Of a DNA stretch of 47,572 nt, positions 8,525 through 30,513 are shown piece after piece. The stretch's first letter is position 1. Each line of letters begins with the position of its first letter. The DNA is taken from positions 1 through 47,572 of the IMG/VR virus record IMGVR_UViG_3300008262_000117; one strand, written 5' to 3'. Under the pieces are notes generated by a model that did no database searches, was not told where the DNA came from, and saw nothing but the letters and a program-made list of their open reading frames with translations. The DNA comes from a virus. The position numbers and the translations under genes are program-made.

Positions 8525-8539
8525 CTGGGGGTAAAAATT

Positions 8540-9532
8540 TTGACCGACCTCCAGATTTTTGACGGCAAGGGTGACGATGAGCCAAATGAACCGCTCATCG
8601 ACACCCCTGTCGACATGCGGCCCGATTTGTCTGAATTGGGTTTTATCGAGCATGACCGCGGCATAGTTGAAGATACCTATGAGAACCGCTTGCTTTTACG
8701 CCAACATAACTTTCAATGGGTTCCCGTCTATACAGAGAACGGACACCCGACTGGGCTAATTGAGGCCCGCTCCCTTGAGCAGATGAAGGAACGGCGACTC
8801 ATGTCGCTCTCCAGCAAAAGGGCCCTATTAAGCGAACCACTTCAGAATAACTCCGATTACTTGACGGGTCTGGATCTGGTTGTTGATTCAGAGGCGTGCA
8901 AACTCGTACCGCCTTGGGTACTCGGCGCGACCCGCGCCTACCTAAAAGAGCAGGAAGATGGCGGACCGCCAACGGCTCGGCGAGCGCCAAAAGCATTACC
9001 TATGCGTTGCCGTGCCCACACATCCGAGGGCATCCGCTGCATGCTGTGGTCATCGGGGCGTATGAAAGATGACGGCTTGTGTCGCCTACACCTTGGCGCG
9101 AACAAGAAGACGGGCGCGGACATCGAACGGGCTCGCAAGAAGCTGATGCAGTCTGCACCCTACGCGGTGGACAAACTTGAAGAACTTATGGAGAACGCCA
9201 TCTCCGAGCCAGTCAAACTCAAAGCGGCGACAGAGATTCTTGACCGTGCTGGTATCCGTGCTGGTATGGAGATTGACCTCGGCGTGGAACTTAAAGATTC
9301 CCGAACACCCGCTGAGATTATTGCTGAACGGCTTGCCCGCTTAAAAGCAGGAGCCACCATCATTCAAGGCGAGCTTGTTGATCACACGGACCAGAAAGAA
9401 GCAGAAGTTGTTTTGGAGTTAACGGAAGAAGACCCCAAAATTTTTACCCCCCAAAGCTCTGATCCGAGCTCGACATCGGAACAACTTTCCCAACCAGCAA
9501 TCTCTGAAGAGGAGCTCGACGAGCTACGATGA
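8540..9532 (+). CDS. putative small terminase subunit or other DNA-binding protein, 330 aa
   Basis: Visible parts are a variable N-terminal half; a four-ligand cluster RCRAHTSEGIRCMLW...CRLHLG (about 154-183), possibly a zinc finger; a helical block SAPYAVDKLEELMENAISEP-VKLKAATEILDRAG (about 203-236), of a kind seen in phage small terminases and related DNA-binding proteins; and a disordered acidic tail. Small terminases recognise the packaging site. No large terminase gene follows, so this remains uncertain. The start is TTG 8540, preceded by GGGGGTAAAAATT, a copy of the dispersed motif; an inverted copy lies inside the gene at 9436-9452. Confidence 0.5.
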   Translation: MTDLQIFDGKGDDEPNEPLIDTPVDMRPDLSELGFIEHDRGIVEDTYENRLLLRQHNFQWVPVYTENGHPTGLIEARSLEQMKERRLMSLSSKRALLSEPLQNNSDYLTGLDLVVDSEACKLVPPWVLGATRAYLKEQEDGGPPTARRAPKALPMRCRAHTSEGIRCMLWSSGRMKDDGLCRLHLGANKKTGADIERARKKLMQSAPYAVDKLEELMENAISEPVKLKAATEILDRAGIRAGMEIDLGVELKDSRTPAEIIAERLARLKAGATIIQGELVDHTDQKEAEVVLELTEEDPKIFTPQSSDPSSTSEQLSQPAISEEELDELR

Positions 9533-9735
9533 CAACCGAACAACTTTTGGAATTAGCACAGCTGCACGCAGAGCGGCTCGAGAACGACATCAAGCTGGCC
9601 CGCACAAGGGACGAACATATTCGAGTAACGGCTCGCGCTAATGAAGCAGCGGAGATGGTTAACGGATTGTTGAAACTTCAATCAAATGAGCCGCAGCCTG
9701 TTCGCAACATCAGCGGCATGGGATTTATAGATTAA
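9529..9735 (+). CDS. hypothetical helical protein, 68 aa
   Basis: One long predicted helix (ELAQLHAERLENDIKLARTRDEHIRV) then a short tail. ATGA overlap with the upstream gene suggests linked function, possibly a partner of the putative small terminase. Family unknown. The stop codon lies inside the left arm of a long hairpin. Confidence 0.75.
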   Translation: MTTEQLLELAQLHAERLENDIKLARTRDEHIRVTARANEAAEMVNGLLKLQSNEPQPVRNISGMGFID

Positions 9736-9775
9736 TTACTAAACTATGCTAGATGCTAGCATAGTTAGTAATTAA
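9732..9775. terminator. long AT-rich inverted repeat, 20-21 bp arms
   Basis: The arms 9732-9752 and 9756-9775 are complementary except for one extra A in the left arm, with an ATG loop of three bases. No T-run follows, so it may be a factor-dependent terminator, an RNA processing site or a protein-binding palindrome. It overlaps the stop of the upstream gene. Confidence 0.6.
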
Positions 9776-9798
9776 CGGTTTGTCAAGAGGAGAACGGC

Positions 9799-9876
9799 AT
9801 GGGACGGCTAGAGGGTGACTGCACAAAAGAACCTGCGCCAAAAGACGGCGCGAGCGATATGGACGATTTGCTGTGA
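9799..9876 (+). CDS. possible microprotein, 25 aa
   Basis: ATG 9799 follows a strong AAGAGGAG and the frame ends TGA, overlapping the next gene's GTG (GTGA). The product is small and acidic (GRLEGDCTKEPAPKDGASDM). It could be a leader peptide that couples translation of the zinc-ribbon gene downstream. No family recognised. Confidence 0.5.
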   Translation: MGRLEGDCTKEPAPKDGASDMDDLL

Positions 9877-10010
9877 GCACCTTCAGTAATTTTTACCCAC
9901 CGAAGGCGGCGAGCAAAACGGATTGCTTCTGGTGCGGCGAGGAACTTAATCCAGACGGCGTGTGTAAAAGCTGCGCCACAACTCAACGGCCCGCCTCAAC
10001 CACTTCCTAA
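9873..10010 (+). CDS. zinc-ribbon microprotein, 45 aa
   Basis: The frame encodes CFWCG (C18, C21) and CKSC (C31, C34), a compact zinc ribbon, flanked by polar tails. Start GTG 9873 overlaps the upstream stop as GTGA. It contains an inverted copy of the dispersed motif (GGTGGGTAAAAATT read on the minus strand, about 9890-9903), here encoding part of NFYPP. Function unknown. Confidence 0.6.
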   Translation: MSTFSNFYPPKAASKTDCFWCGEELNPDGVCKSCATTQRPASTTS

Positions 10011-10570
10011 TAACGGCGTGCGCCTGAGCGCATACATATATACAAAGGTATGTCGCGTAGTAATTTACACCTAAATTACAACGGTAATAATGCAGGAAGA
10101 TTTGACGGCCAGCTCTGATTAGATCTACACATCCAAATAACTTTTCCAAGCTGTAGCTGAACGTCGGATTTTGTGTGCACGCACAAATATGCAGGAAGGT
10201 CACCAGCACGTAGCTGCAGATCACCGTCAACATCCAAACAACTTGAGACAGCGGCCCGCCGCCAGATCAAGAATTTTTACCCCCTGAAGATGGCCAGCTC
10301 CAGATCCCTGAACAACTTATGAACAACTTTGGCTGCCAGGTTGACAGAGCTTGACAAGCCAGGTAGGATTAGGTTTTGCAACCTAGCGGCCGCAAAACTA
10401 AAAAGGGCCCTTCAGCTTCCAACTTCCAAATAACTTTTACCATCCCAAGCTGCAGCACCAGGTGCCAGGTTTTTGCAGGGGTAAAAATTTCTGATCGTTT
10501 CGGGCCCGAGCTGTGGAACTTCCAAATAACTTTGTAACTAGATGACAGCTGTAGGTTGCAAACCAAACAC
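10011..10570. repeat. non-coding repeat region with CNTCCAAAYAACTT and GCAGGAAG motifs
   Basis: No gene is visible in this stretch. CATCCAAATAACTT or a close variant starts at 10130, 10231, 10423 and 10519 (spacings 101, 192 and 96), and a weaker copy lies near 10305-10316. TGCAGGAAG occurs at about 10091 and 10190. GGGGTAAAAATTT is at 10478, and an inverted copy is at about 10272-10284. Six- and eight-base palindromes are dense: AGATCT, GTGCAC, CTGCAG twice, GCGGCCGC, GGGCCC twice, CAGCTG. The layout resembles a degenerate tandem array of about 97 bp units. Confidence 0.65.
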
Positions 10571-10599
10571 TTGCGCAGATAAAAAATTTATAATAGAAT
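10571..10599 (+). promoter_or_regulatory. promoter TTGCGC-17-TAGAAT, leaderless transcript predicted
   Basis: The -10 box TAGAAT (10594-10599) lies 7 bases before the GTG at 10607, the same geometry as the promoter at 6258. There is no Shine-Dalgarno. The -35 box is only a partial match. Confidence 0.6.
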
Positions 10600-10606
10600 C
10601 GATGGC

Positions 10607-10903
10607 GTGATAGAGACATTAATACTTTGGCAGTTGACTCGCATTCGAGACGACATAGACAACGACCCTTATGGTGAACAAGACTGGATTGTTGGGATGT
10701 TGGTCTTGGGATCCACACTGTGGCCAGTCGGAGTTTTTCTGGTGGCGAGGCATCACACAGGTCTGAACATCTTTCGTTCCTTACTAGCAGCTGCAGCCTT
10801 GGCCAGCGTTACTCTCTTCATCAACCCGCTTATCTATGTTGTGGTAGCAGTTGTTTTCTTTGTCGGAGCGATTTGCTATTTTGACAGGGAGAACATAGAA
10901 TAG
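10607..10903 (+). CDS. hypothetical membrane protein, 98 aa
   Basis: Three hydrophobic stretches are visible: about 27-47 (WIVGMLVLGSTLWPVGVFLV), 54-72 (FRSLLAAAALASVTLFI) and 74-91 (LIYVVVAVVFFVGAICYF). No family recognised. The GTG start has no ribosome-binding site and lies at the predicted transcription start, so it is probably translated from a leaderless RNA. Confidence 0.7.
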   Translation: MIETLILWQLTRIRDDIDNDPYGEQDWIVGMLVLGSTLWPVGVFLVARHHTGLNIFRSLLAAAALASVTLFINPLIYVVVAVVFFVGAICYFDRENIE

Positions 10904-10945
10904 TTTCTGAAGCACCTGCTTCAACAAAATGACGGAAGGACAACC

Positions 10946-11251
10946 GTGTCAACAATTACAAAAGTAGCGGCATTACCTCAATGCGACTTCTGCACAGATA
11001 AAGCAAGATTTGACGGCATGACAACATACGGCCCGTGGGGCAATATGTGTGAACCACACTTCGATACATACGGCGTCGGCTTAGGAACAGGCAAGGGCCA
11101 GCGGCTCGTCGAAGAAGGAGAAGATGTTGTGATGTCGTGGGGCGAGCTCGCGGATCTCAATCACGGCAAGCAAGTAGAACTATTCGGTTTCTGCAGTTGC
11201 GAAGACTTAGAACCGCACGAATACCCGTATGAAGATTGCGGGCGTGCATGA
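10946..11251 (+). CDS. conserved phage zinc-binding protein, 101 aa
   Basis: The N-terminus carries CDFCTDKARFDGMTTYGPWG-NMCEPHF, a C-x2-C followed by a C-x2-H, that is, one zinc site; a second small cluster (FCSCEDLEP) lies near the C-terminus. Similar proteins are common in actinophages, to my knowledge without a known role. GTG 10946 follows GGAAGGA. ATGA overlap with the next gene. Confidence 0.8.
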   Translation: MSTITKVAALPQCDFCTDKARFDGMTTYGPWGNMCEPHFDTYGVGLGTGKGQRLVEEGEDVVMSWGELADLNHGKQVELFGFCSCEDLEPHEYPYEDCGRA

Positions 11252-11661
11252 GAGTGCCGAGCAAGTTGTATCACGCAGCACCAGAGTGCGTGTTCACGGA
11301 CATCAACGGCGAGGGATTAAAGTCCCACTTCGGAGAAATTTACGCGGCGTGTACTCCTGCGGATGCAATGAATTTTATGTGGTTCAGACTTCTAGACCAC
11401 CCGCACTACAAGTTCGAGAACGGCAAGGTAGTCGGCATGGACTTAGAACGGCATGACCGCATCTACGTATTTGAAATTTCAACTAACGGCACGTCCAAAC
11501 AACGGTGGCGTGCTGGGACTGACCACTCCGCTGCATTCTTTGGCGGCGCGGAGAGTTGGGTGTACGCGGGTAAAAAGATTGAACGGCACGCCCTAACGGG
11601 AGTCTCGTACTTCACCCGTGAGATGGTGGAGTCAGCAAGATCCGCTGCAGCGTCGAAGTAA
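11248..11661 (+). CDS. conserved hypothetical protein, 137 aa, possibly ADP-ribosyltransferase-like
   Basis: The protein begins SKLYHAAPECVFTDINGEGLKSHFGEIYAA and continues with A-x2-F and VFEI strands and a W-x2-GTDHSAAFFGG loop. The sequence of H near the start, INGEGLK and a following IYAA strand resembles the order of motifs in KptA/Tpt1-type and related ADP-ribosyltransferase folds (H, GL, strand-Y), but the resemblance is loose. It is more safely called an actinophage conserved protein. It overlaps the upstream gene by ATGA and is followed by a terminator. Confidence 0.7.
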   Translation: MRVPSKLYHAAPECVFTDINGEGLKSHFGEIYAACTPADAMNFMWFRLLDHPHYKFENGKVVGMDLERHDRIYVFEISTNGTSKQRWRAGTDHSAAFFGGAESWVYAGKKIERHALTGVSYFTREMVESARSAAASK

Positions 11662-11675
11662 CATCCAAATAACTT

Positions 11676-11720
11676 AAACCCGTGGAGCTCACTGCGAGCC
11701 CACGGGTTTATTATTTTGCT
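11676..11720 (+). terminator. intrinsic terminator
   Basis: A 10 bp stem AAACCCGTGG / CCACGGGTTT (11676-11685 with 11700-11709) is followed by TTATTATTTT. It closes the 10607-11661 unit. Confidence 0.8.
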
Positions 11721-11900
11721 ATGGGTAAAAAAGAACGGGATGAACTGCGTCGTTTAACACGGGGCGTGCCTGGAAATTATGTGCAGAACCAGAAGTCCCA
11801 AGTCTTTGAAGACCGACGCACGAAGCGTCGTAGAACCCGCGGGGTAAAAAACTCAGAGGCCATCAGTGAATCGGCCGATCACGATTCAACTTCCAAATAA
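11721..11900 (+). CDS. possible basic protein, 59 aa
   Basis: Highly basic (ELRRLTRGVPG; RRTKRRRTRG), so nucleic-acid binding is plausible. ATG 11721 directly follows the terminator, with no Shine-Dalgarno but a TATTAT box ending 6 bases upstream. The reading frame contains two copies of the GGGTAAAAA motif (11723, 11842) and its stop lies in a CTTCCAAATAACT motif, so part of the sequence may be conserved as DNA rather than protein. Moderately doubtful gene. Confidence 0.45.
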   Translation: MGKKERDELRRLTRGVPGNYVQNQKSQVFEDRRTKRRRTRGVKNSEAISESADHDSTSK

Positions 11901-12000
11901 CTCAAAACCACAGAACCACAGCAAAAACCCAACTCCTCAGATTTTTACTCACGCTCAAATCGCCAGGGCCCCAGGCCAGTCCAAACTTCCAAATAACTTT
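11838..12000 (+). repeat. paired GGGGTAAAAA and CTTCCAAATAACTT motifs
   Basis: GGGGTAAAAA at 11841 is followed by CTTCCAAATAACT at 11890. An inverted ATTTTTACTC lies at 11941, and CTTCCAAATAACTTTTT follows at 11986. Apart from the end of the basic-protein frame the stretch 11901-12099 has no gene. The same pairing occurs at 10478/10519, 19977/20036 and 20442/20486. Confidence 0.65.
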
Positions 12001-12036
12001 TTGATTACCAAGATGTCTAGTCAGGTGTGGCGAGAT

Positions 12037-13398: not shown

Positions 13399-13424
13399 TG
13401 GGTGGGGTAAAAAAGCCCCACCCA
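13399..13424 (+). terminator. GC-rich hairpin after the Api92-like gene
   Basis: GGGTGGGG (13400-13407) pairs with CCCCACCC (13416-13423), with a TAAAAAAG loop. No U-run follows, so it may act as a U-less terminator. Its loop and left arm form a GGGGTAAAAAA copy of the dispersed motif. Confidence 0.6.
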
Positions 13425-13476
13425 TACCAAACGGCAGGGTAGTATTAGTTTATTGAAACGGAAGGGTAAAAACGGG

Positions 13477-13818
13477 ATGGAAGAGAACGAGATTCTAGAC
13501 GCGGAGCTTGTAGAAGACGGCTCGCCTATAGAGGTAAAAATAGTAGACCCGCAGCCTGTAGAGCGCTCGCTAGGTTACTTCGCGCTTGACGGGAACTACG
13601 GAGACGCTAGCGGTCTGCTCGTATTGGAAACTACATTTTGGAGAGAAGTAGATTGGGAAATCCTCGAGTCAGCATCGGATAGCCAGCGTGCAAATGTCGC
13701 ACGGTTAATAACGGAGTCCTACGAGAAGCCTGAGGAGATGTCGGTGTTGTATGACAAGTTCGAGCAATACGGTATTGACCTCGATAACTTTATGCCGCGG
13801 GACCAGCTTGACAGTTAG
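13477..13818 (+). CDS. hypothetical acidic protein, 113 aa
   Basis: Unrecognised. It has an acidic N-terminus (EENEILDAELVEDG), a mixed middle (FALDGNYGDASGLLVLE) and a helical C-terminus. GGAAGGGTAAAAACGGG precedes ATG 13477, so a GGGTAAAAA copy lies in the ribosome-binding leader. The longer frame from 13453 would translate that site and is less likely. Confidence 0.7.
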   Translation: MEENEILDAELVEDGSPIEVKIVDPQPVERSLGYFALDGNYGDASGLLVLETTFWREVDWEILESASDSQRANVARLITESYEKPEEMSVLYDKFEQYGIDLDNFMPRDQLDS

Positions 13819-13840
13819 GCCCTTGATAGGGTAAAAATCT

Positions 13841-13871: not shown

Positions 13872-13970
13872 GACCTGAGCAAGTCACAAAACTGCTCACC
13901 TTTTTTTTGGCGCTCGCCATTTTTATCCCCACAGGGTCAGGAAATAAATCAAAAAGTTTTGGTGTTCTAC

Positions 13971-13999
13971 TTGACAATGGCAGGAAGATGAAATAATCT
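13971..13999 (+). promoter_or_regulatory. promoter TTGACA-17-TAATCT with GGCAGGAAGATG
   Basis: A consensus -35, the family spacer element and a good -10. GGCAGGAAGAT and ATCTTTTCCTGTC form an imperfect dyad around the -10, which may be an operator. It drives 14030 through the AACGACGAAAGGA leader. Confidence 0.8.
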
Positions 14000-18105: not shown

Positions 18106-18128
18106 CAAACGACGAAAGGCGGGTAAAA

Positions 18129-18581
18129 ATGGACGGCATACAACCACTACTTGACAATGTAGGTGCAACAGTTGAGTGGGATAGCGGTTTGCCGATGCAC
18201 GAAGATAAACGGGACGCGATGTTTTATTGCGACGGCAACTCTTCACGATTTGTGGCAGGGGTAAAAATAGCTGAGTTCTCGGTAGACATTTATTGCGACG
18301 GCATCACCGATGTTCGTGATAGAACAAATGGCCAGCGTTATACATACGGCGGGGATTTAATAATGCACGACTACACGACGGACGAGTTGTTAAATCAGGC
18401 AACCGAAAGCGGTGACTTAGAGATTGTCAATAACAGTTGGTTCGATTTGTATTGTGATGGCGAGCATCTTGATACGGTGACGCACGATGTGTGGGACGCA
18501 ATACGGAGTGCTATTTCTTGGTTACAAGAAGAGAAGCAAAACGCACAAGCCATTGAAAATGTTGGCTTGGAGATGGTGTAA
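18129..18581 (+). CDS. hypothetical protein, 150 aa
   Basis: Not recognised. A repeated short pattern stands out: MFYCDG, DIYCDG and DLYCDGEH at about residues 32, 53 and 107, suggesting internal beta-hairpin repeats. Preceded by AACGACGAAAGGCGGGTAAAA; a GGGTAAAAAT copy overlaps the start codon, and another lies inside the gene at 18258. Confidence 0.75.
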   Translation: MDGIQPLLDNVGATVEWDSGLPMHEDKRDAMFYCDGNSSRFVAGVKIAEFSVDIYCDGITDVRDRTNGQRYTYGGDLIMHDYTTDELLNQATESGDLEIVNNSWFDLYCDGEHLDTVTHDVWDAIRSAISWLQEEKQNAQAIENVGLEMV

Positions 18582-18613
18582 CGGGTAAAAATAACGGGTA
18601 GGAGAAAACGACG

Positions 18614-19099
18614 ATGGCAAGAGTTATTCAGTTGATGTTGGTAGAAGCAGAAAGCGCAGAAGACGCAAAGCGGTCTGTTCTTGGTTTGCTTGAAGGTGAT
18701 GGTTCGCCTACACCTGATTGGTCGGATTATCACGATGTAGTTGAGTTCTTCGACAAGGAAGAAGCGGTTCCCTACTCAACAACCATTGGCAAGATGATGT
18801 TTAACGAGATGGTTGCAGAACGGGAAGCTGAACTGAAGAGGTATTACGACCGGGTAAAAAATTTCGATTTGAAAAAATCTGTTGAAAATTACGACCCGTT
18901 CAAGTCAGGTGGTTACACAGAAGATGACTTCCGTATCTATGAGATTAGAAAGATAGCCAGCATCTTGGAAGATAGATGGACTATGGATAGTGCCGTCTAT
19001 GACCTAGAAACTTGGTCAGCAAATCTCAAAGCCTTTAGAGAGCGTTGCGAACTTGCCCCTGAGATGCAATACCTAGTTGCGGTGAGTTTCCACCACTAA
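18614..19099 (+). CDS. hypothetical protein, 161 aa
   Basis: Unrecognised, mostly helical and charged. The short leader contains AACGACG directly before ATG 18614, with GGAG further up. One GGGTAAAAAA copy lies in frame at 18852 (encoding RVKN). Likely co-transcribed with the gene at 18129. Confidence 0.75.
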   Translation: MARVIQLMLVEAESAEDAKRSVLGLLEGDGSPTPDWSDYHDVVEFFDKEEAVPYSTTIGKMMFNEMVAEREAELKRYYDRVKNFDLKKSVENYDPFKSGGYTEDDFRIYEIRKIASILEDRWTMDSAVYDLETWSANLKAFRERCELAPEMQYLVAVSFHH

Positions 19100-19907: not shown

Positions 19908-19924
19908 AAAGCAGTAACGAGAAG

Positions 19925-19954
19925 CCCCCGCAGAGATGCGGGGGTTTTTCTTTT
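19925..19954 (+). terminator. intrinsic terminator
   Basis: CCCCCGCA / TGCGGGGG stem, with a GAGA loop and TTTTTCTTTT tail: the clearest terminator of the window. Confidence 0.95.
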
Positions 19955-19976: not shown

Positions 19977-20051
19977 GGGGTAAAAATTCCGGGAGCTGAA
20001 GCAAAAAATCCAGGTCAGCAGCAAATTCCTGCACCAGGTGCGAATAACTTT
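19977..20051 (+). repeat. GGGGTAAAAATT ... GCGAATAACTTTT composite element
   Basis: GGGGTAAAAATTCC begins at 19977; GTGCGAATAACTTTTCAATGATGCAC follows near 20039. The same order, including CAATGATGCAC, recurs at 20442-20510. The element lies between a terminator and the next family promoter. Confidence 0.6.
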
Positions 20052-20367: not shown

Positions 20368-20383
20368 GCGTCGAAGAACAAGA

Positions 20384-20418
20384 ACTCCCGTGTCGAAAGA
20401 TGCGGGAGTTTTTCTTTT
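20384..20418 (+). terminator. intrinsic terminator
   Basis: ACTCCCG / CGGGAGT stem (20384-20390 with 20403-20409) and a TTTTTCTTTT tail. Confidence 0.9.
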
Positions 20419-20441: not shown

Positions 20442-20510
20442 GGGGTAAAAATTTTTGATCGGCCCGGTTTATGTAATGGTGAACAACCAAACAACTTCAC
20501 AATGATGCAC
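20442..20510 (+). repeat. GGGGTAAAAATTTTTGATCG ... CCAAACAACTTC composite element
   Basis: GGGGTAAAAATTTTTGATCGG at 20442 closely matches GGGGTAAAAATTTCTGATCG at 10478. AACCAAACAACTT follows at 20485, as CTTCCAAATAACTT follows at 10519. The stretch to 20583 has no credible gene. Confidence 0.7.
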
Positions 20511-21972: not shown

Positions 21973-21982
21973 AGGGGTAAAA

Positions 21983-22159
21983 ATGTCGGCAACTGAAGAC
22001 AGAAAACACTTACGGGATATGTCTATCCAAGAGTTAGAAAAGATTATTTGCGAAGAGTGCAAAGAACCTGAGAAGACACTAGACCAATACTTGTGTCCGA
22101 ACTGCTCCAAAGATGATGACAGACTCTGTGTTGATTGTTGCGGTTGTTACGATGACTGA
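21983..22159 (+). CDS. zinc-ribbon protein, 58 aa
   Basis: Three cysteine pairs are visible: CEEC (about 23-26), CPNC (about 38-41) and CVDCCGC (about 49-55), enough for one complete zinc ribbon plus a second half site. GAAGGGGTAAAA precedes ATG 21983, so a motif copy serves as the ribosome leader. It overlaps the next gene by 8 bases. Confidence 0.7.
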   Translation: MSATEDRKHLRDMSIQELEKIICEECKEPEKTLDQYLCPNCSKDDDRLCVDCCGCYDD

Positions 22160-22511
22160 ACCTTTTTATGGTTACCAAACTTGCGATGCGTGCGGTGTTC
22201 CCAAAGAGTGCCAGAGTCAAGAAGAAGTTGTTGATAATGGCATCGCATTTAATTTTCAAGAGTTAGGTTACTACGGGGGTTTCATAGACAATGCTCCAGC
22301 GATGGGGGATAAAAATCTGGAGTGGAACCTATGTCACGAGTGCATACTTAAGATGTTACAAACTTTCCCGATGCTTGCGGCTAAGTTACCGAGAGGTCTT
22401 CACCCAACTGACGATAAAACCAAGCCCTGCTGTGATTGGGCTTGGAAGCACGAAGGAGATGCTATGACAGGAAGAACTTACTTTGCTGATGGTTTGGGGG
22501 GCTGGAAATAA
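22152..22511 (+). CDS. zinc-binding protein, 119 aa
   Basis: CDACGVPKEC (about 11-20) and CHEC (about 61-64) form one zinc site; CCDW lies later. Unrecognised family. ATG 22152 is chosen because it overlaps the upstream stop, the operon's normal pattern, rather than 22113. Confidence 0.7.
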   Translation: MTEPFYGYQTCDACGVPKECQSQEEVVDNGIAFNFQELGYYGGFIDNAPAMGDKNLEWNLCHECILKMLQTFPMLAAKLPRGLHPTDDKTKPCCDWAWKHEGDAMTGRTYFADGLGGWK

Positions 22512-22729
22512 TGAGTGAGAGCATAGACAAGATAAATCTTTCGCGGACAGTTTTATTTGTGGGTGACTACTTCAGCCTGATGACCACAGTTGTCCTTGAG
22601 GAGAGCAAGCGTGCGGAAGGCGAAGATGATGATGATTTCGCTATTCGCTTGGCAAAACAGTTTATGTTGGGCTACTACGGGTGGGACTTAGAGGCAGTAG
22701 CCAATGAGATTGGGATTGTCGAGGAGTGA
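22511..22729 (+). CDS. hypothetical protein, 72 aa
   Basis: A helical acidic protein (EESKRAEGEDDDDFAIRLAKQFM), unrecognised. TAATG overlap with the previous gene. Last gene of the operon that starts at 20724. Confidence 0.7.
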   Translation: MSESIDKINLSRTVLFVGDYFSLMTTVVLEESKRAEGEDDDDFAIRLAKQFMLGYYGWDLEAVANEIGIVEE

Positions 22730-22746
22730 GCTCCTGAAGGAAATCA

Positions 22747-22925
22747 GGGTAAAAATTTTGTTTTATTCTAGAGCTCCAGCACACGCAGCTGGAGCTTCGC
22801 GCTCGCGGTGTGTTGATGAGGCGGGACTGCTACCCCCTGCCGCACCCTCCGCCCGCAACCCCTAGCGGGGGAGAGGTGTCGAGTCTTTTCCTATCACTTC
22901 CCTGTATGCGGTTTAGTATGTATCT
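22747..22925 (+). promoter_or_regulatory. intergenic hairpin and possible leaderless promoter
   Basis: GGGTAAAAATTTT at 22747 is followed by a 9 bp hairpin AGCTCCAGC/GCTGGAGCT (22772-22796) and a GC-rich stretch with CCCC-TAGC-GGGG. TAGTAT (22914-22919) ends 6 bases before ATG 22926, which has no Shine-Dalgarno, so a leaderless RNA is possible; no clear -35 is seen. Confidence 0.45.
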
Positions 22926-23173: not shown

Positions 23174-23755
23174 ATGACAACGATGGTAGCAGTGCAAGGA
23201 CCTACTTGGGCAGTCGTTGGCTGCGACAGCCAAGTTACTGAAGACAATAAAATTTTTATCCTTCCTAAAGATAATCCGAAGATAATGAGAAATGGTCCTT
23301 TCTTGTTTGGTGCTGCGGGCGATATGCGTGCTATCAACTTACTTGCTTATCAGTTCAAGCCACCCGTTCCACCCGTGAACTGTTCTGGAAGCAGACTAGA
23401 CAAATTCGTTTCAAGTAAATTCATACCTGAGTTGAAATCATTGTTTGATGAAGTTCAATACGGGGAAAAGGGAAACCAAGAGTCAGAAATCCTCTGCGTT
23501 GTGCACGGACGCATCTACGAGATTGGCTCTGGTTACGATTGGTGCCGTGACCAAAGCGGAATTTATGCGTTTGGTTCTGGAGGAGAATACGCTCTGGGTT
23601 CGCTGCATAGTCAGCTTGAGGGTAAAAAATTTACGCTAACTGCTGTGCGTGCTGCGGTTCGGCGCTCGCTAGAGGTTGCAACAAGGCTTGACCCTAATAC
23701 TGGTGGTCAGTTGCTCATCTCTGTTCAGCAAGATGAGTGCCGTCAGCCAGGCTAA
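23174..23755 (+). CDS. proteasome/HslV-like Ntn-hydrolase family protein, 193 aa
   Basis: The start MTTMVAVQGPTWAVVGCDSQ corresponds to the TT-x-VA...G-D strand pair of proteasome beta and HslV subunits, in which an N-terminal Thr (here T2 or T3) is the nucleophile. It continues with KIMRNGPFLFGAAGDMRA, the usual G-AG-D/S turn, and GSGGEYALGSL near residue 135, equivalent to the conserved G-S-G-x2-A loop. A phage member might degrade or process proteins, or be a scaffold only. The paired ATPase is not adjacent; the MoxR ATPase at 15039 is a different class. Confidence 0.82.
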   Translation: MTTMVAVQGPTWAVVGCDSQVTEDNKIFILPKDNPKIMRNGPFLFGAAGDMRAINLLAYQFKPPVPPVNCSGSRLDKFVSSKFIPELKSLFDEVQYGEKGNQESEILCVVHGRIYEIGSGYDWCRDQSGIYAFGSGGEYALGSLHSQLEGKKFTLTAVRAAVRRSLEVATRLDPNTGGQLLISVQQDECRQPG

Positions 23756-24566: not shown

Positions 24567-25055
24567 ATGTCAGGGGGTAAAAAAGCTGGCACAACAGCGC
24601 CGACTTGGGACGAGTTTGTTGAGTGCACGCCGTATGTTGATGGGAAACCTAGACCTGATTTACTAAGTGACCAAGAAACAATGTGGCAGAACAAGTTTTA
24701 TGTGGTGTTTAGGAAATACCTAACAGCACACGGAGCAGATGGTCCGATGCACCTCAGCATTAGACATCAACAGCGCAAGGCTATTCGAGATTGGCGTCAT
24801 TTCCAACGCATCAAGAACGAACTTGCGGGTGCTCAACGAGAAGCAATAGAGATTTTCCCACCTGAAGCATTGTTAGTTGATGGTGCTAATCAGTATCACT
24901 TGTTTGTTTTAGCGATGGGAGATACAACGCCTTTTACTTGGAAGACGGGTCGTGCCGTTTCAGGTGAAGATGGTGGAGAAGAGATGGAACGCAAAATGCG
25001 TGATATGGGTTTCGACCCAAAGCACACAGTCCAACGACCGAGAGATGGAGAGTAA
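24567..25055 (+). CDS. conserved phage protein (RDWRHFQRIKNE family, DUF7694-like), 162 aa
   Basis: The core LSIRHQQRKAIRDWRHFQRIKNELAG..REAIEIFPPEALLVD..NQYHLFVL (about 65-118) matches a widespread phage domain of unknown function; I believe it is the one called DUF7694. In other phages the same domain occurs alone at this size. GGGGG precedes ATG 24567, and GGGGGTAAAAAA lies at 24573, inside the gene's start. Confidence 0.7.
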   Translation: MSGGKKAGTTAPTWDEFVECTPYVDGKPRPDLLSDQETMWQNKFYVVFRKYLTAHGADGPMHLSIRHQQRKAIRDWRHFQRIKNELAGAQREAIEIFPPEALLVDGANQYHLFVLAMGDTTPFTWKTGRAVSGEDGGEEMERKMRDMGFDPKHTVQRPRDGE

Positions 25056-25057: not shown

Positions 25058-25255
25058 ATGAAGAGCCAGCGTTTGGCTGAAGAAGCAGCAAAGATGTATG
25101 TAGATGGTTTGGCAGTCGAGGCAGTAGCCCAGAAGTTGGGAGTTGCCTACAGGACAGCACGCAAAGCCATTAGAGCAGGTGGGGTGGAGTTTAGAGACCC
25201 ATCTCAAAGATTAGTTGGGCGAACTCGCCCAGATAGGAGCGTAGTCAATGCCTAA
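25058..25255 (+). CDS. helix-turn-helix protein, 65 aa
   Basis: AKMYVDGLAVEAVAQKLGVAYRTARKAIRAGGV (about 12-43) is a clear helix-turn-helix of the resolvase/Hin type, followed by FRDPSQRLVGRTRP, a common basic tail in phage HTH proteins. It is a candidate regulator of the repeated operator-like sites in this half. ATG 25058 follows GGAGAGTAAAA. Confidence 0.75.
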   Translation: MKSQRLAEEAAKMYVDGLAVEAVAQKLGVAYRTARKAIRAGGVEFRDPSQRLVGRTRPDRSVVNA

Positions 25256-25394: not shown

Positions 25395-25790
25395 ATGTGG
25401 TTATTTACTGATACAGGTTTTGTTAGTGCGGTTGTTTCAAAGGAAGACCGAACTAAGATTTCTGTTCGCGCTCGCGATAAGAAGTCGTTAGAAGGTTTTG
25501 TGAAGATGTTCAGGGTAAAAATTGTAGAACTCGAGCATCGTGATTATGAATATCGCATCTACCTGACAAAAGAACAACTGACTCAATGGCTTGCAACCCG
25601 AGTTGAGGAGTTGAACTATGACAATTTCAAGACTCAGGTGACAAAGACACGCGGTTATGATTTCGCGGAGCCTCTGCACGGAGTCTGGTATGAGATGTTA
25701 GAAGTGTCTGACAAGCGTAAAAAGACCAAAAAGGCAAGCACTTTAGGTTCACGCTGGTATGAGGAAGAATACAGTTACCCTCAGGCGTAG
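25395..25790 (+). CDS. conserved actinophage hypothetical protein (MWLFT family), 131 aa
   Basis: MWLFTDTGFVSAVV at the start, RVKIVELEHRDYEYRIYLTKEQ in the middle and LNYDNFK near residue 76 form a pattern I recall from many actinophage hypothetical proteins. Role unknown. ATG lies directly after the previous stop. Confidence 0.8.
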   Translation: MWLFTDTGFVSAVVSKEDRTKISVRARDKKSLEGFVKMFRVKIVELEHRDYEYRIYLTKEQLTQWLATRVEELNYDNFKTQVTKTRGYDFAEPLHGVWYEMLEVSDKRKKTKKASTLGSRWYEEEYSYPQA

Positions 25791-25937: not shown

Positions 25938-26585
25938 ATGCGAAACCCTTTATTTCGCCATGCCGAAACTACTACGTTTGGTGTGATAGCAGCAGTGCTA
26001 GCAGGAGCAGTCGTATGGAGTGCGGCAGCAAGTGCAGAAACTAATGAAACGAACGCAGGAGCAGCAGCACCCGCTGTTGTATTGGAAGAAGTGCGGCTCA
26101 TCAATATGGCAGCAGCACGGATAGCTGGAGCTGAGTCCAAAGAGGAGAAGCTCCAAGAGGTAAAAAATCTAAGAACCCAGATGCAGCTTGAGCTGTTCGA
26201 AGACCGAACTGTTCCCCTTGCTCCTCTGGAACTGAAGACCTTACTCAGACTCGTTGGGTTTGAGGGTCAAGGCTTGAAGACCGCTTGGGCAGTTGTAATG
26301 ACTGAGTCCAATGCTCGTCCTAAAGCCCATAACTCAAATACTCGAACAGGCGATAACTCTTACGGGTTGTTCCAAATCAATATGATTGGAGCACTTGGAG
26401 ATGCACGCATTGAGAAGTTTGAACTCAAGAAGAACGAAGACCTACTCAACCCTGTGACTAACGCGGAGGTTGCTTTCCATATGAGTGGTGCAGGAACTAA
26501 CTTCTCAGCGTGGAAGGTTACTGGATATAATAATGGCAGTGAAAGGTTTGAATCTTTCCTTGCTGAATACCCGACCAAAGGATAG
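25938..26585 (+). CDS. secreted lytic transglycosylase / lysozyme-like protein, 215 aa
   Basis: An N-terminal hydrophobic segment (about 14-31, FGVIAAVLAGAVVWSAAA) serves as a signal peptide or membrane anchor. After an Ala-rich linker, the C-terminal part has AWAVVMTESNARP (catalytic Glu in MTES, about 122), NSYGLFQINM (about 141-150) and a final NAEVAFHMSGAG helix, the SLT/lysozyme-like arrangement. It would cleave the glycan strands of peptidoglycan at infection or lysis. It pairs with the protein that follows. Confidence 0.88.
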   Translation: MRNPLFRHAETTTFGVIAAVLAGAVVWSAAASAETNETNAGAAAPAVVLEEVRLINMAAARIAGAESKEEKLQEVKNLRTQMQLELFEDRTVPLAPLELKTLLRLVGFEGQGLKTAWAVVMTESNARPKAHNSNTRTGDNSYGLFQINMIGALGDARIEKFELKKNEDLLNPVTNAEVAFHMSGAGTNFSAWKVTGYNNGSERFESFLAEYPTKG

Positions 26586-26587
26586 TT

Positions 26588-27076
26588 ATGAGTCAAGAAC
26601 CAGAGCGTTTGTATGAGATGGAAGAGCCTAAGGCGCTCGCAGTTGAGCCTGAAACTCTCCCTGTTGTGATGGCTGAGCCAGCACCTGAGATGGTAAAGGT
26701 TGAAGAACCAGTTGCCATCGTAGTTGAGCCTGAAGTTGTTGCGGTTGAAGAACAGATCGCGCCAACTGACAAGAAGACCAGGGGTAAAAAATCCGTGGTC
26801 GGATCGCAGATCGCCGATGGAACTTCTGTTTATCTTTCTAAAGTTGTCTTTGAATCTGAGTATGCAAGGAACAGTAACTCTGTTGCTGTGCTTCAGATAC
26901 GCCTAATCGAACTTGGTTATGCGACTGCTGGAGATGACAAGCAAGGTTGGATTAGTGCGGGAACTGCAAAAGCCCTTGAAGACTTCAAGAGTGATAACGC
27001 GGTTGCTTCAGACATCTACTCACAAGAGATGATTGAGGCTGTATTCGCTGGAACTTCAGTTGAGGTTCTCCCATAG
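26588..27076 (+). CDS. Val/Pro/Glu-repeat protein with possible peptidoglycan-binding domain, 162 aa
   Basis: The N-terminal 60 residues are a repeated V-E-P/A-E-P pattern (ALAVEPETLPVVMAEPAPE). A basic hinge (KKTRGKKS) precedes a C-terminal domain, NSVAVLQIRLIELGYATAGDDKQGWISAGTAKALEDFKSD, which fits a PG_binding_1-type repeat (L-x-L-G-Y...G-x2-T-x2-A-x2-F). It may target the neighbouring lysozyme to the wall, though it lacks a signal peptide. GGGGTAAAAAATC at 26781 lies in frame in the hinge. Confidence 0.65.
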   Translation: MSQEPERLYEMEEPKALAVEPETLPVVMAEPAPEMVKVEEPVAIVVEPEVVAVEEQIAPTDKKTRGKKSVVGSQIADGTSVYLSKVVFESEYARNSNSVAVLQIRLIELGYATAGDDKQGWISAGTAKALEDFKSDNAVASDIYSQEMIEAVFAGTSVEVLP

Positions 27077-27094
27077 TTTAGTTTTTACAACATC

Positions 27095-27137: not shown

Positions 27138-27213
27138 GTTTGGACAACGCAAGGTGCGGGAGAGCTTGGCTGCCTAAATTTTTACCCCGTCAAGCTCTCC
27201 TGTGTCTCTGCTG

Positions 27214-27245
27214 CAAAAGAAAAACCCCCCAGTTTCCTAGAGGGT
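27214..27245 (-). terminator. intrinsic terminator, minus strand
   Basis: Read leftward: ACCCTC pairs with GGGGGT across TAGGAAACT-G, followed by TTTTTCTTTT. It ends the gene at 27266-27430. Confidence 0.75.
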
Positions 27246-27265
27246 CTTCTTAAATCTATTAAGTT

Positions 27266-27430
27266 TTATGCTGTTGCTTGAATTAGAGCGTCTACATCTT
27301 GCTTGATTATGTAATACGCTACGGCACAGCCACGGCAATACTTCTCTGTTGCTGGGAGCCCTAGTTGAAAAGCATCTGTGCCTGAGAATACTAGGTCTGT
27401 GCTCTCACAGTTTGGAACTTTGCACTTCAT
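27266..27430 (-). CDS. zinc-ribbon microprotein, 54 aa
   Basis: C3 and C8 (CKVPNC) with C32 and C35 (CRGC) give one zinc site, followed by a helix. ACGACGAAAGGG leader and own family promoter. Function unknown. Confidence 0.75.
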   Translation of the reverse strand: MKCKVPNCESTDLVFSGTDAFQLGLPATEKYCRGCAVAYYIIKQDVDALIQATA

Positions 27431-27481
27431 TTGTTTCCCTTTCGTCGTTTGTTTCTATAAGGCGTTTGCCTTATAGGTAGA

Positions 27482-27509
27482 ACTTTAACACCTTCCTGCA
27501 CTTTGTCAA
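27482..27509 (-). promoter_or_regulatory. promoter TTGACA-16-TAAAGT with GTGCAGGAAGGTG
   Basis: A near-perfect family member on the minus strand. A 9 bp hairpin CTATAAGGC/GCCTTATAG lies at the predicted RNA start (about 27457-27478). GCGTGTCGC sits just upstream. Confidence 0.85.
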
Positions 27510-27518
27510 GCGACACGC

Positions 27519-27752
27519 CTACTCGACATTTCTTTCAATGTCTCTAGTTGCCCCACAAGTTGGACACTTCCACTCGTAGTATTCGGTGTCGTGTGACAAT
27601 TCGATTTCGACATCTGCTTCGACATCTTCAACCTCAAACATCTTGCACTCTTCGTTATAGCAAGCCTCTGCACGAACATCACTCCACTCGTGCTGAGCCC
27701 CTGAGATTTGGTATTCGTTTCCTGTAACACCTGCGGGATAGTTGCTTGACAT
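27519..27752 (-). CDS. zinc-binding protein, 77 aa
   Basis: CYNEEC (about 31-36) and CPTCG (about 63-67) form a zinc site around an acidic middle (EVEDVEADVEIELSHDTEYY). The sequence around WKCPTCGATRDIE is ribbon-like. ACGACGAAAGGAAAACAA leader. Confidence 0.75.
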   Translation of the reverse strand: MSSNYPAGVTGNEYQISGAQHEWSDVRAEACYNEECKMFEVEDVEADVEIELSHDTEYYEWKCPTCGATRDIERNVE

Positions 27753-27785
27753 TTGTTTTCCTTTCGTCGTTTGCCTCTAAGTAGA

Positions 27786-27813
27786 ACAATAGCACCTTCC
27801 TGCACTATTGCAA
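27786..27813 (-). promoter_or_regulatory. promoter TTGCAA-16-TATTGT with GTGCAGGAAGGTG
   Basis: Family spacer element intact, weaker -35. It drives the 27752 gene. Confidence 0.75.
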
Positions 27814-27849
27814 GTCGAATCGCTGTTTATTACATCACATTTTGATAAC

Positions 27850-27880
27850 AAAAAACCCCCCCTAGAAAGGGAGGGAGGGT
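27850..27880 (-). terminator. intrinsic terminator, minus strand
   Basis: Read leftward: ACCCTCCC pairs with GGGGGGGT around TCCCTTTCTA, then TTTTTTG. It ends the three-gene unit 28551-27897. Confidence 0.75.
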
Positions 27881-27896
27881 CTTTCGTTCGAGTTAT

Positions 27897-28226
27897 CTAG
27901 GAGGCAACCAGTAACTCGCGGACTCGTTGTTCGGTGTCTTTAGCCAGAGCCAGAGTCTCACCCTCTTCCCCTGTGCCACCTGTGAGGACGACATCGCCAA
28001 CGATAAAGTCAGAGCCTACCCAGAAAGTCTTGTCCCAGAGTTTCTGTGCGGTTTGATTGTGCGGTAGCCCAATGAGTTTGCCTTCCTCATTGACCCAGAT
28101 AGTTAGGTCGTTTGCTAAGTCAATAGCCTGAACCCAACCACCTACTGCGGATTGTAAAGCTTGCAACCCTGTATTGTCCAGAGTTTTAATCTCACCTTCT
28201 GCGGTGATTACTAGAGCGTTTGTCAT
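27897..28226 (-). CDS. DUF3846 domain protein, 109 aa
   Basis: The pattern VGGWVQAIDL (about 29-38), LTIWVNEEGKLIGLPHNQTA (about 41-60) and FIVGDVVLTG (about 74-83) is the DUF3846 signature. The family is common in actinophages and plasmids; function unknown. TAATG overlap with the membrane peptide upstream. Confidence 0.88.
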   Translation of the reverse strand: MTNALVITAEGEIKTLDNTGLQALQSAVGGWVQAIDLANDLTIWVNEEGKLIGLPHNQTAQKLWDKTFWVGSDFIVGDVVLTGGTGEEGETLALAKDTEQRVRELLVAS

Positions 28227-28342
28227 TAGTTGAATACCCCCAATACTCCAAGTGTTGCAATAATAACTACGGTTAGTATTGCCCCTCCTATACCTGCCAT
28301 TTGTGCATCTAGGTTTTCATCTATCCAGTCAAGAATAAACAT
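28226..28342 (-). CDS. membrane microprotein, 38 aa
   Basis: A short polar N-terminus (ILDWIDENLDAQM) and one hydrophobic helix (GIGGAILTVVIIATLGVLGVF). TAATG overlaps link it to both neighbours, so it is translated from the same message. Unknown role. Confidence 0.65.
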   Translation of the reverse strand: MFILDWIDENLDAQMAGIGGAILTVVIIATLGVLGVFN

Positions 28343-28551
28343 TAGGCAACCCTTCCCCAGATAATGTCCTGCACCTCTGCATCAGACATAGTGCGGTAAG
28401 TCATTGCTGTGCCTGTGTGTGTTTGCTCGTATACGGTGAACTCTGTAATAGAGTGAGAGCCAGTAAATAACTCTCTAACCTTTTGAACTGTATCAACGTG
28501 AAAGTTGTATTGACTTCCACCTGCGGTGATTGCAATTCCATAAGTCTTCAT
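28342..28551 (-). CDS. hypothetical protein, 69 aa
   Basis: Small beta-alpha protein (TYGIAITAGGSQYNFHVDTVQKVRELF), unrecognised. First gene of the three-gene leftward unit. Confidence 0.75.
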   Translation of the reverse strand: MKTYGIAITAGGSQYNFHVDTVQKVRELFTGSHSITEFTVYEQTHTGTAMTYRTMSDAEVQDIIWGRVA

Positions 28552-28603
28552 TGTGTGCCTCTTTCGTTTTGTCGTTATGCGGTGAGCCTCTCACCACACG
28601 CTT

Positions 28604-28631
28604 AATCTATCACCTTCCTGCACTATGTCAA
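28604..28631 (-). promoter_or_regulatory. promoter TTGACA-16-TAGATT with GTGCAGGAAGGTG
   Basis: A perfect family promoter, followed by a GGTGAG/CTCACC hairpin at about 28580-28594. About 20 bases upstream lies TTGTTACCAAATCGTTATCA, the same element as upstream of the 19437 promoter. Confidence 0.85.
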
Positions 28632-28679
28632 GTCATAACCCCCCATATTTGATAACGATTTGGTAACAAAGTTTTAGCC

Positions 28680-29200
28680 TCTAACATCACAATAACCCCT
28701 ACACACCTGACCAGACCTGACCACCTATAGCCCCCAGCCAGACTAACCAGCCAAGCACTAGGCACACCAGGCACACCTGGTCAGACTTACACAAGTTGTT
28801 TGTATCTCTAGCCAAAACATTTGCTACTCGTCAGTAGCTTCCTCCACCTCCTCCACCACCAGACCCACCACCTACTAACCCACCTACCTCTACTCACAAG
28901 CACCTAGCCCAAGCACTAGCCCCAAGCCTTGACCACCTTGACCACCTAGCCCAAGCACCAACACCTAGACAACACAAGACACACTCAACATTGACAAGCA
29001 CAAGCACATAGACACAAAAAAGTAAGAGCCTCTCAACAAAGCAAGCACATAAACACAAAAAAATAACAAGATAATGACAACCTGCCTACTTTTTATAAAA
29101 CAAAAACTAAAAAGCACACAACAAAGCACAAGAAAAAACAATCCTGGCAGCAAAACAAAAACCAACAAAACAACGAAAAAAAGCCCGGAACGATTTGGCA
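28680..29200. other. gene-free stretch almost devoid of G on the plus strand
   Basis: The plus strand is almost only A, C and some T, with recurring CAAGCACTAG, CACCTAGCCCAAGCAC, GACCACCT and later CACAAGCACA phrases. The only long frame (minus strand, about 28965-29237) is a low-complexity Phe/Val/Leu product caused by the skew. Such amino/keto skew is seen at some origins, packaging sites and unstructured RNA regions. Confidence 0.7.
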
Positions 29201-29217
29201 AAAGGCTATATATAAGC

Positions 29218-29303
29218 GGAGCCGTCTCACAGGCCAAAAGAAGAAATCGTTAAGGTTCATAAAATCGCTGCTGCCGTACAATGAAGTGGCTCCGTACGGC
29301 TCC
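29218..29303 (+). promoter_or_regulatory. overlapping inverted repeats before the head operon
   Basis: GGAGCCGT (29218-29225) is complementary to ACGGCTCC (29296-29303), and GCCGTAC (29273-29279) to GTACGGC (29294-29300). The second arms overlap, so the two stems exclude each other, an attenuator-like layout. TACACT (29316-29321) ends 6 bases before GTG 29328. Confidence 0.5.
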
Positions 29304-29327
29304 TTTAAAAGCCTGTACACTAGGTAA

Positions 29328-29822
29328 GTGGAAATCCCAACTCTCCCTTTAGATGAAGTCACCTTCATCCAATCCTTACCGCGCCCGCAAGCTGAGTCTC
29401 GCATGCGAGCTTTGTGGGAGGTTGGCTGGTCCCTGCAATCAATCGGGTCCTCTCTCATCCCTCAACGCCCTAAGACCACAATCCACTTCTGGGTCAAACG
29501 AGCCACCCCTGAGCAACAACATAGGCAGGTCCCCTCACCGCCACCCCGCTCTCTAACAACTAGCGTTCCAACTAAGACTGCCCCTCGAGTCAGGACTATC
29601 TCTCCTGGCGTTCCTGAGCACCTTAAGAACGAGATTAAACAGTTATCTCTACAGGCACGTCTCTACAGGGCTAAGACTCCTGCAGGGCATCCTGTGGCTC
29701 TTGCCAATGACCAACTGACTGTTATGGTTAAAACCCTCTACACAATGGGCGTTCCTGCTCAGGCGTTGGCTGATTCCGCTGGTGTCTCTTACAGAGCTAT
29801 GATTCGAAGGATTAGTAGATGA
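29328..29822 (+). CDS. DNA-binding protein with two helix-turn-helix segments, 164 aa
   Basis: The N-terminal part RALWEVGWSLQSIGSSLIPQRPKTTIHFWVKR (about 27-58) and the C-terminal part MVKTLYTMGVPAQALADSAGVSYRAMIRRISR (about 132-163) both have HTH spacing, joined by a basic Pro-rich linker. Position at the head of the structural operon suggests a regulator or a packaging-site protein (small-terminase role is possible). GTG 29328 has no strong ribosome site and may be leaderless. Confidence 0.65.
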   Translation: MEIPTLPLDEVTFIQSLPRPQAESRMRALWEVGWSLQSIGSSLIPQRPKTTIHFWVKRATPEQQHRQVPSPPPRSLTTSVPTKTAPRVRTISPGVPEHLKNEIKQLSLQARLYRAKTPAGHPVALANDQLTVMVKTLYTMGVPAQALADSAGVSYRAMIRRISR

Positions 29823-30145
29823 ATACAACCTTCAAGAATAAAACTGGCTCCTACGCTCCCTCTGAATTGGCAATTGTTGTTTGGTCTAACCCAAAAGGTA
29901 GAGGCAGAGCCCTTGAGACTATGACTACAGAGGATTCAACCCTACCGATTGTTTTTCCTGCTACCTATTTAAAGAAAAACAGGGAGTGGAGTAATGCAAC
30001 TTTTGTTTCTAGCGTTCAAGAGGTTTTTGACTTTATCTCCCAAAGCACTCGAAGCCACCCTTTAATAGTTCCAATGCCTATTGCTAAATCAGCTTTAGGC
30101 TGGGAAAACTTTTATGTACCAACCGAATATGTTGAGGAACAATGA
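29819..30145 (+). CDS. hypothetical protein, 108 aa
   Basis: Unrecognised, mixed composition (ELAIVVWSNPKGRGRALETM). ATGA overlaps on both sides, so it belongs to the head operon's lead genes. Confidence 0.75.
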   Translation: MNTTFKNKTGSYAPSELAIVVWSNPKGRGRALETMTTEDSTLPIVFPATYLKKNREWSNATFVSSVQEVFDFISQSTRSHPLIVPMPIAKSALGWENFYVPTEYVEEQ

Positions 30146-30513
30146 AAAAGCAGTTAGATGTCTTTCCAGCAATCGTAAAACTCATTTCTCCGGGCGCCCT
30201 TTCCGAACTAAGCATGACCAGTGTCAAGGGAGATATGCCCCAAGGGACTAGGAAGTTGGACCGTTGCAGGGTTGTAGTTTTGAATGAGACAGTTTTGATA
30301 GCTGTGGATTCTCCAGAAGGTCCGCAACTTGTGTTTCGGGAAAAGATAGTTGAAATGATTAATGAAAAAGGCTTGGACAGGGTAAAAACCGAATCAGGCA
30401 AGATGCTGGCCTTCATAAAGGACACCAATTGCGGTTGTGGTTCTCGGTTGAGGGGTTGGAACCCATTCAACGGTATTGTTGCTTCTACGGAGGACCCAAG
30501 TGGAATTATTTGA
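30142..30513 (+). CDS. conserved phage hypothetical protein, 123 aa
   Basis: Ends with TNCGCGSRLRGWNPFNGI, a C-terminal motif I recall from actinophage proteins near the portal. The middle is beta-rich (CRVVVLNETVLIAVDSPEG). Function unknown. ATGA overlap upstream; it overlaps the next GTG by 14 bases. Confidence 0.75.
   Translation: MKKQLDVFPAIVKLISPGALSELSMTSVKGDMPQGTRKLDRCRVVVLNETVLIAVDSPEGPQLVFREKIVEMINEKGLDRVKTESGKMLAFIKDTNCGCGSRLRGWNPFNGIVASTEDPSGII

Follow-up and report, generated by a model that had tools for sequence, protein, structure and literature searches.

An oriented array of about 27 short repeats in the early region of a large freshwater actinophage, with a possible role as a stoperator-like roadblock

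Results

We analysed a 47,572-base IMG/VR virus record (IMGVR_UViG_3300008262_000117, taken as a whole and hereafter called the window), a fragment of a large tailed phage with a whole genome of roughly 120-160 kb, and found that its small-gene region carries an oriented and conserved array of the 9-mer GGGTAAAAA. This word is the most over-represented one in the window, with 25 exact copies (+, 21; -, 4), none of them outside 8529-30388, against an expectation of 0.30 from dinucleotide shuffles (maximum of 3 across 100 shuffles) and of 0.68 from an order-3 Markov model (Poisson P about 2e-30). The structural genes (about 16 kb) hold no exact copy. Our tentative explanation, to which we give slightly less than even confidence, is that the array consists of about 27 binding sites for one protein and works as a stoperator-like roadblock in early/accessory operons.

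Conservation extends over approximately [GAC]GGGTAAAAA[TA], and outside a stretch of 11-12 bases the information content is close to nil. An earlier sequence-only reading of the window had described about 32 copies or variants of the motif, limited to 8.5-30.4 kb. Its claim that the repetition is non-random holds, since the background models do not explain the count, and its copy coordinates were correct to within a few bases; the confinement is exact for the 9-mer, with one 8-mer (GGGTAAAA) found at 43444 (-). Its number of copies was slightly high: besides the 25 exact copies, we accept the variant GAGGTAAAAA at 13531 and 26157 and, tentatively, GGGATAAAAA at 22306, and our best estimate from the sequence is 27-28 real sites. 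Among the inverted copies that it reported, the four exact ones are real and those near 11941, 13918 and 23248-51 are not. Indeed, the sequence at 11941 is only AGTAAAAA, and those at 13918(-) and 23248-51(-) are lost or altered in relatives at 81-85% identity. The orientation bias, the in-gene copies (in two frames) and the intergenic copies were all borne out.

Loss of the motif at aligned positions in close relatives, named in the same reading as evidence that would speak against it, was looked for, and the motif was found to be retained. At aligned sites, the exact 9-mer is kept in L003 (16/21), L005 (16/20) and L049 (17/22), three relatives at 81-85% DNA identity, compared with 20-30% of local 9-mers (Fisher test, 6e-8, 8e-8 and 5e-6, respectively). 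The exact word is likewise present at every site that could be aligned in two relatives at greater distance, L007 (3/3) and L011 (4/4), and relatives keep GAGGTAAAAA at 13531 and 26157 as well. The aligned sites are under purifying selection. Because they are kept in two reading frames as well as in non-coding DNA, it is the nucleic acid rather than the encoded protein that is selected, as had been proposed from the sequence.

Sister clades (AAA-ATPase 60-74% identical) display a different over-represented word in the same region, namely AGGTAAAAAAT in L009, L010, L014 and L016, GGTAAAAAT in L008 and L018, AGTAAAAAGTAAAAAC in L027, L030 and L053, GCAAAAAGTAAAAAC in L024, L028 and L029, and GGAAAAAAAT in L031 and L033. 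At the syntenic sites 11841 and 23619, the class B word is present in class B phages, as expected if the specificity of a binding protein drifted. Elsewhere among the sister clades, this region holds repeats of promoter type, either the -10-like TGATATAAT and TGTTATAAT or GTATTTATT about 80-110 nt 5' of starts. Note that L019, L020, L021 and L022 show another kind of array, in which TTAGTAGCA occurs about 40 times within 14-21 kb with the strands about equal, and which is therefore orientation-neutral.

In three near-complete related genomes, the sites are restricted to a single early region of 20-30 kb: 22 of the 25 exact copies of G004 (136 kb) lie at 95.1-116.5 kb, the clade word AGGTAAAAA of G008 (118 kb) is clustered at 71-90 kb, and GTAAAAAGT is found mostly at 75-105 kb in G014 (127 kb). 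Relative to transcription, 94 sites are sense and 15 opposite in five class A lineages, and the bias persists between genes once sites 25 nt or less from the following start are set aside (37:11 sense:opposite, P 2e-4). At convergent junctions in three lineages, the site is turned with the minor-strand operon, and in G014 the sites change strand near 78 kb along with the genes.

Class A copies are located in leaders, over starts, right past stops and within genes, where they are spread along the gene length in two frames. More than half of the sites are intergenic and about 28% of the copies are in genes, one of them just 8 nt past the start; 23 of the 119 class A sites (19%) abut or overlap a start codon, and 81% lie elsewhere. 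In clades A-D, 14/119 intergenic sites are found 45 bp or less beyond a terminator, compared with an expectation of 2.4%, and no such site immediately precedes a terminator. The start-overlapping sites have a Shine-Dalgarno-like sequence inside or upstream of the word, so transcription must start further upstream and the mRNA includes the site. A second promoter box (-35/-10) was sought in the 50-nt flanks and none was found, the flanks being without information content. Distances to starts are scattered, and the class A-E words display neither a -10 box nor a fixed start distance. RNA structure predicted around the sites revealed neither an unusually unpaired word nor a consistent flanking hairpin.

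Individual copies in the window

The first copy, GGGGTAAAAATT at 8528-8539 (+), lies just 3' of a stop codon, abuts the TTG start at 8540 and is kept in L003, L005, L007 and L049. The non-coding stretch at 9.74-10.6 kb holds three copies, of which TGGGTAAAAATT at 9888-9899 (-) is missing in L003, L005 and L049, GGGGTAAAAATT at 10272-10283 (-) is kept in L049 and affected by an indel or changes in L003 and L005, and GGGGTAAAAATT at 10478-10489 (+) is inverted relative to the preceding one. The in-gene copy CGGGTAAAAAGA at 11567-11578 (+) is retained as GGTAAAAA in L003, L005 and L049. Next to it, TGGGTAAAAAAG at 11722-11733 (+) overlaps the ATG at 11721 that starts a small basic protein, within whose gene lies GGGGTAAAAAAC at 11841-11852 (+), where class B L014 reads GAGGTAAAAAA, its own clade word. 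The copy GGGGTAAAAAAG at 13404-13415 (+) is placed between the GGGTGGGG/CCCCACCC hairpin arms, 19 nt past a stop; it is followed by AGGGTAAAAACG at 13463-13474 (+), shortly 5' of the ATG at 13477, by the in-gene variant GAGGTAAAAATA at 13531-13542 (+), kept in L003, L004, L005 and L049, and by AGGGTAAAAATC at 13828-13839 (+), 10 nt past a stop codon.

Further along, CGGGTAAAAATG at 18120-18131 (+) overlaps the ATG at 18129, GGGGTAAAAATA at 18258-18269 (+) is within the gene 18129-18581, CGGGTAAAAATA at 18582-18593 (+) abuts the preceding stop codon, and CGGGTAAAAAAT at 18851-18862 (+) is within the gene 18614-19099. Two identical copies (GGGGTAAAAATT) follow terminator-like hairpins, at 19977-19988 (+), 27 nt beyond the hairpin 19919-19950, and at 20442-20453 (+), 29 nt beyond the hairpin 20380-20413. 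The copy GGGGTAAAAATG at 21974-21985 (+), the last letters of which are ATG, abuts the preceding stop and is unaligned in the relatives at 81-85% identity. The in-gene variant GGGATAAAAATC at 22306-22317 (+) is a tentative, weakly supported site, for which L049 keeps GGGATAAAAATT; AGGGTAAAAATT at 22746-22757 (+) is located 17 nt past a stop codon.

Within a proteasome-like gene (23174-23755), AGGGTAAAAAAT at 23619-23630 (+) is read as AAGGTAAAAAA in class B L009, L010, L014 and L016. This gene encodes a small proteasome/HslV-like protein of the early region, and DSL-LC01 (see below) has one too, adjoining a WhiB gene. The remaining copies are mostly in genes: GGGGTAAAAAAG at 24574-24585 (+) occupies the opening codons of the gene 24567-25055, AGGGTAAAAATT at 25512-25523 (+) is within the gene 25395-25790, the variant GAGGTAAAAAAT at 26157-26168 (+) is within the gene 25938-26585 and kept in L003, L005, L049 and L087, and GGGGTAAAAAAT at 26781-26792 (+) is within the gene 26588-27076. 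The copy GGGGTAAAAATT at 27177-27188 (-) lies at a convergent gene junction and is oriented with the leftward genes 27266-28551. Finally, AGGGTAAAAACC at 30379-30390 (+), within the gene 30142-30513, is the last copy and is kept in L108.

The window and its relatives

A class II ribonucleotide reductase, a portal protein and an AAA-ATPase are encoded in the window, and a further gene is in synteny with an rIIA-like one in Zooman. A near phage database search with the window gave no match. The closest annotated relatives are Actinomycetia phage DSL-LC01, which comes from Dishui Lake and is 74% (portal) and 68% (AAA-ATPase) identical, and Microbacterium phages, e.g., Pumpernickel and Zooman. The isolation of phages on the freshwater actinobacterium 'Ca. 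Planktophila' has been reported (PMC10202952). IMG/VR contigs near-identical or 85-92% similar to the window reach sizes of up to 160 kb. Note that the 160.7-kb contig IMGVR_UViG_3300047564_003843 (L082 + L083) has a second portal gene (91% identity to that of the window, with 100% for the first) and thus probably joins two related phages in a chimeric sequence.

Discussion

The sites lie where transcription passes, they point along it, and their words change together from clade to clade; a sequence-specific protein that meets the elongating RNA polymerase appears as the best explanation of these features. One sequence-specific protein would bind sites within the transcribed early/accessory operons, the bound protein would hinder RNA polymerase elongation as a stoperator-like roadblock, and the roadblock would in turn damp or time the expression of the small-gene region. 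We infer that the target of the protein is DNA and not RNA, and also that elongation is blocked once it is bound.

The stoperators of cluster A mycobacteriophages (L5, Bxb1) and of cluster CA Rhodococcus phages are 13-14 bp asymmetric words with 20-30 copies, whose orientation is tied to transcription, whose positions are intergenic or at gene ends, and whose clade-specific words drift (PMC9283540, PMC6550527, PMC13313380). Bxb1, scanned in the same way as the window, displayed 32 operator/stoperator sites, in a near-uniform orientation to transcription and mostly intergenic, with 6 in genes. The likeness to stoperators suggested by the sequence-only reading thus stands for the layout (about 27 copies, an asymmetric word, transcription-linked orientation and clade drift). 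In contrast, the present word differs in sequence and is somewhat shorter (10-12 bp compared to 13-14 bp), about 28% of its sites are in genes and 14% opposed, with a weaker orientation than in Bxb1, and the sites occupy a single region of 20-30 kb in genomes of 118-136 kb instead of being genome-wide. Moreover, no homologue of the cluster A repressor (Rep, L5 gp71/Bxb1 gp69) was found in 12 relatives using its family phrog_357. Because genome-wide spread and a repressor homologue were both tested and not found, we did not file the array as a member of the stoperators. A tyrosine integrase was sought in the relatives and none was found; four relatives encode a resolvase-size serine recombinase of 219-233 amino acids, and one more is clipped by a contig end.

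The word could instead act in RNA, where the sense sequence GGGGUAAAAAU(U/G) would control translation or decay through recognition by the ribosome, a nuclease or an RNA-binding protein. The model for such an element is the Start Associated Sequences (SAS) of cluster K mycobacteriophages, a 13-bp asymmetric, Shine-Dalgarno-like word (GGGATAGGAGCCC) with 11-19 copies mostly in one orientation (PMC3203893), and the present word is likewise asymmetric, frequent and mostly in one orientation. Its sense orientation, the 23/119 class A sites that abut a start codon, the merging of the clade B and D words with the Shine-Dalgarno region, and the occurrence of a small arginine-rich protein (11721-11897) in the same clades as the G/A-type words all speak for this possibility. 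However, the present repeats do not form an SAS set: all ten exact SAS words of TM4 sit 4-10 nt before a start, compared with 19% of the present sites at starts. Opposite-strand sites are also preserved, local RNA structure or unusual unpairedness is lacking, and sites cluster just beyond terminators. We regard an RNA element as rather unlikely. We give marginally less credence to sites for DNA maintenance, i.e., nucleoid-like silencing, partition, Chi-like recombination or replication priming. The word is indeed short and asymmetric with an A-tract, and the strand switch around 10.4 kb falls in a non-coding, repeat-rich stretch that is a possible origin. However, only about 20 kb of the 118-136 kb genomes are occupied, and the orientation tracks the local gene strand and not a single fork direction. 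A Chi-like or primase site, which the sequence-only reading had offered as an alternative, is unlikely because of this regional confinement (about 20 kb of 136 kb), the change of word between sister clades and the flipping with the gene strand; a Chi-like signal would be genome-wide and oriented with replication.

More improbable still is a promoter element in front of each small gene, served by a phage-specified or phage-activated RNA polymerase as in sister clades. The promoter-type repeats of the sister freshwater actinophages (DSL-LC01 and other contigs) resemble the present array in their region, copy number (14-28) and transcription-linked orientation, and the enrichment of sites just beyond terminators also speaks for a promoter. 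Nevertheless, these repeats hold a -10 (TATAAT) box or keep a start distance of about 80-110 nt, and the present word has neither; its copies run along the gene length, those that overlap starts carry or follow a Shine-Dalgarno sequence, which places the transcript start upstream, and the sigma70-like promoters of the window (TTGACA-16/18-TAnnnT, TGCAGGAAGGTG spacer) are distinct elements that do not include the word. Finally, chance, composition or codon usage has a negligible probability. Lysine and glycine codons do give GGTAAAA some sense bias in structural genes, but the counts and the aligned-site test, with its strong conservation relative to neighbouring DNA, refute this explanation, and the absence of exact copies from the structural genes and the intergenic position of more than half of the sites also speak against it.

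Several points weigh against a roadblock. No binding protein was found, and phrog_357 had 0/12 hits at E<=1 among relatives of which some are near-complete and several are incomplete records. About 14% of the sites oppose transcription; one of them, GGGGTAAAAATT at 9439-9450 (-), sits antisense within the gene 8540-9532 and is kept in all class A relatives, even in L011 and L017 (about 70-73% DNA identity). GGTAAAA occurs 5 times sense and once antisense in structural genes, and codon usage can thus explain part of the in-gene orientation bias, but not the intergenic bias. In addition, the relatives share phylogeny, so the lineages are not fully independent, and the gene calls are simple ones made in this analysis.

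Among the helix-turn-helix (HTH) proteins that the sequence-only reading had proposed as binders, the one encoded at 29328-29822 (+) is a weak candidate for the cognate regulator, judging from alignment, a structure model and comparison between classes. This protein of 164 amino acids is predicted to have two HTH-like domains joined by a flexible linker (mean predicted local distance difference test score, pLDDT, of 85.8), an arrangement that recalls the L5-type repressor with its two DNA-binding domains (PMC9283540). In clades with G-run words, even those with just 54-56% overall identity, the N-terminal recognition helix of the candidate is PKTTIHFWV(K/R)R, whereas clades of similar overall identity that have AGTAAAAAGT-type words show PKSTVHFW(V/I)(K/L)N; the helix hence tracks the motif type at equal overall divergence. 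However, the C-terminal helix is nearly constant, and in Pumpernickel the gene lies between the terminase and portal genes. Microbacterium phages encode the homologue and have no comparable repeat in the stretches examined (around the AAA-ATPase in Pumpernickel). A role in packaging is therefore at least as likely. Searches with this protein against Pfam, PHROGs, PDB sequences and PDB/BFVD folds returned just generic HTH matches or unnamed proteins, and the fold search with its model gave no Rep-like match. The HTH protein at 25058 was rejected as specificity determinant, since its recognition helix is nearly the same across clades with different words, and the clade A-D-restricted proteins 18129-18581 and 22511-22729, which are acidic and without DNA-binding signatures, were rejected as binders.

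It is conceivable, but on the whole doubtful, that the array is a non-homologous counterpart of stoperators, in which each clade within a family of large freshwater actinophages has its own oriented roadblock word in the early region, and a reader protein unrelated to the cluster A repressor changes its recognition helix together with the word. To our knowledge, detailed knowledge of transcription roadblock arrays is limited to cluster A and related actinobacteriophages. If true, a second, unrelated set of arrays in abundant uncultivated freshwater actinophages, where several clade-specific words occupy comparable places, would suggest that the strategy arose more than once, and the clades would provide a natural series for how a phage re-writes about 25 sites as the specificity of its regulator changes. 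The set of arrays is a ready test set for pairing regulators with sites in uncultivated viruses.

Other features of the early region

The sigma70-like promoters that share the TGCAGGAAGGTG spacer are found at 13999, 19448, 20105, 24130, 27498(-), 27802(-) and 28620(-), and this spacer may be an activator or repressor site. A leader, AACGACGAAAGGA, is common to many genes. In L048, L044, L041 and L054, the repeats TGTATTTATTTTTTCT, ATTATGTATTTTTTCCT or GTATCCACTTTT lie 75-110 nt 5' of most small-gene starts and are likely clade-specific promoters of an unusual type. The small protein at 11721-11897 (59 amino acids, with the arginine-rich stretch DRRTKRRRTR) is conserved among clades whose words are of the G/A type and also in the clade carrying TTAGTAGCA; it was not seen in the promoter-repeat clades.

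The octamer GCGCTCGC has 16 copies (12 +, 4 -) at 8980-31871 compared with 0.6 expected, mostly in the same early region, and is common to several clades with or without the GGGTAAAAA word. The element AACTTCCAAATAACTT, with 6-7 copies at 10128-12015 and 23767, is nearly confined to the non-coding, repeat-rich stretch around 10-12 kb or its vicinity; this stretch is a possible origin of replication or control region. A near-perfect inverted repeat (TTAATTACTAAACTATGCTAG/CTAGCATAGTTAGTAATTAA), read by eye, is located at 9736-9777, with a gene end on one side and the non-coding stretch on the other.

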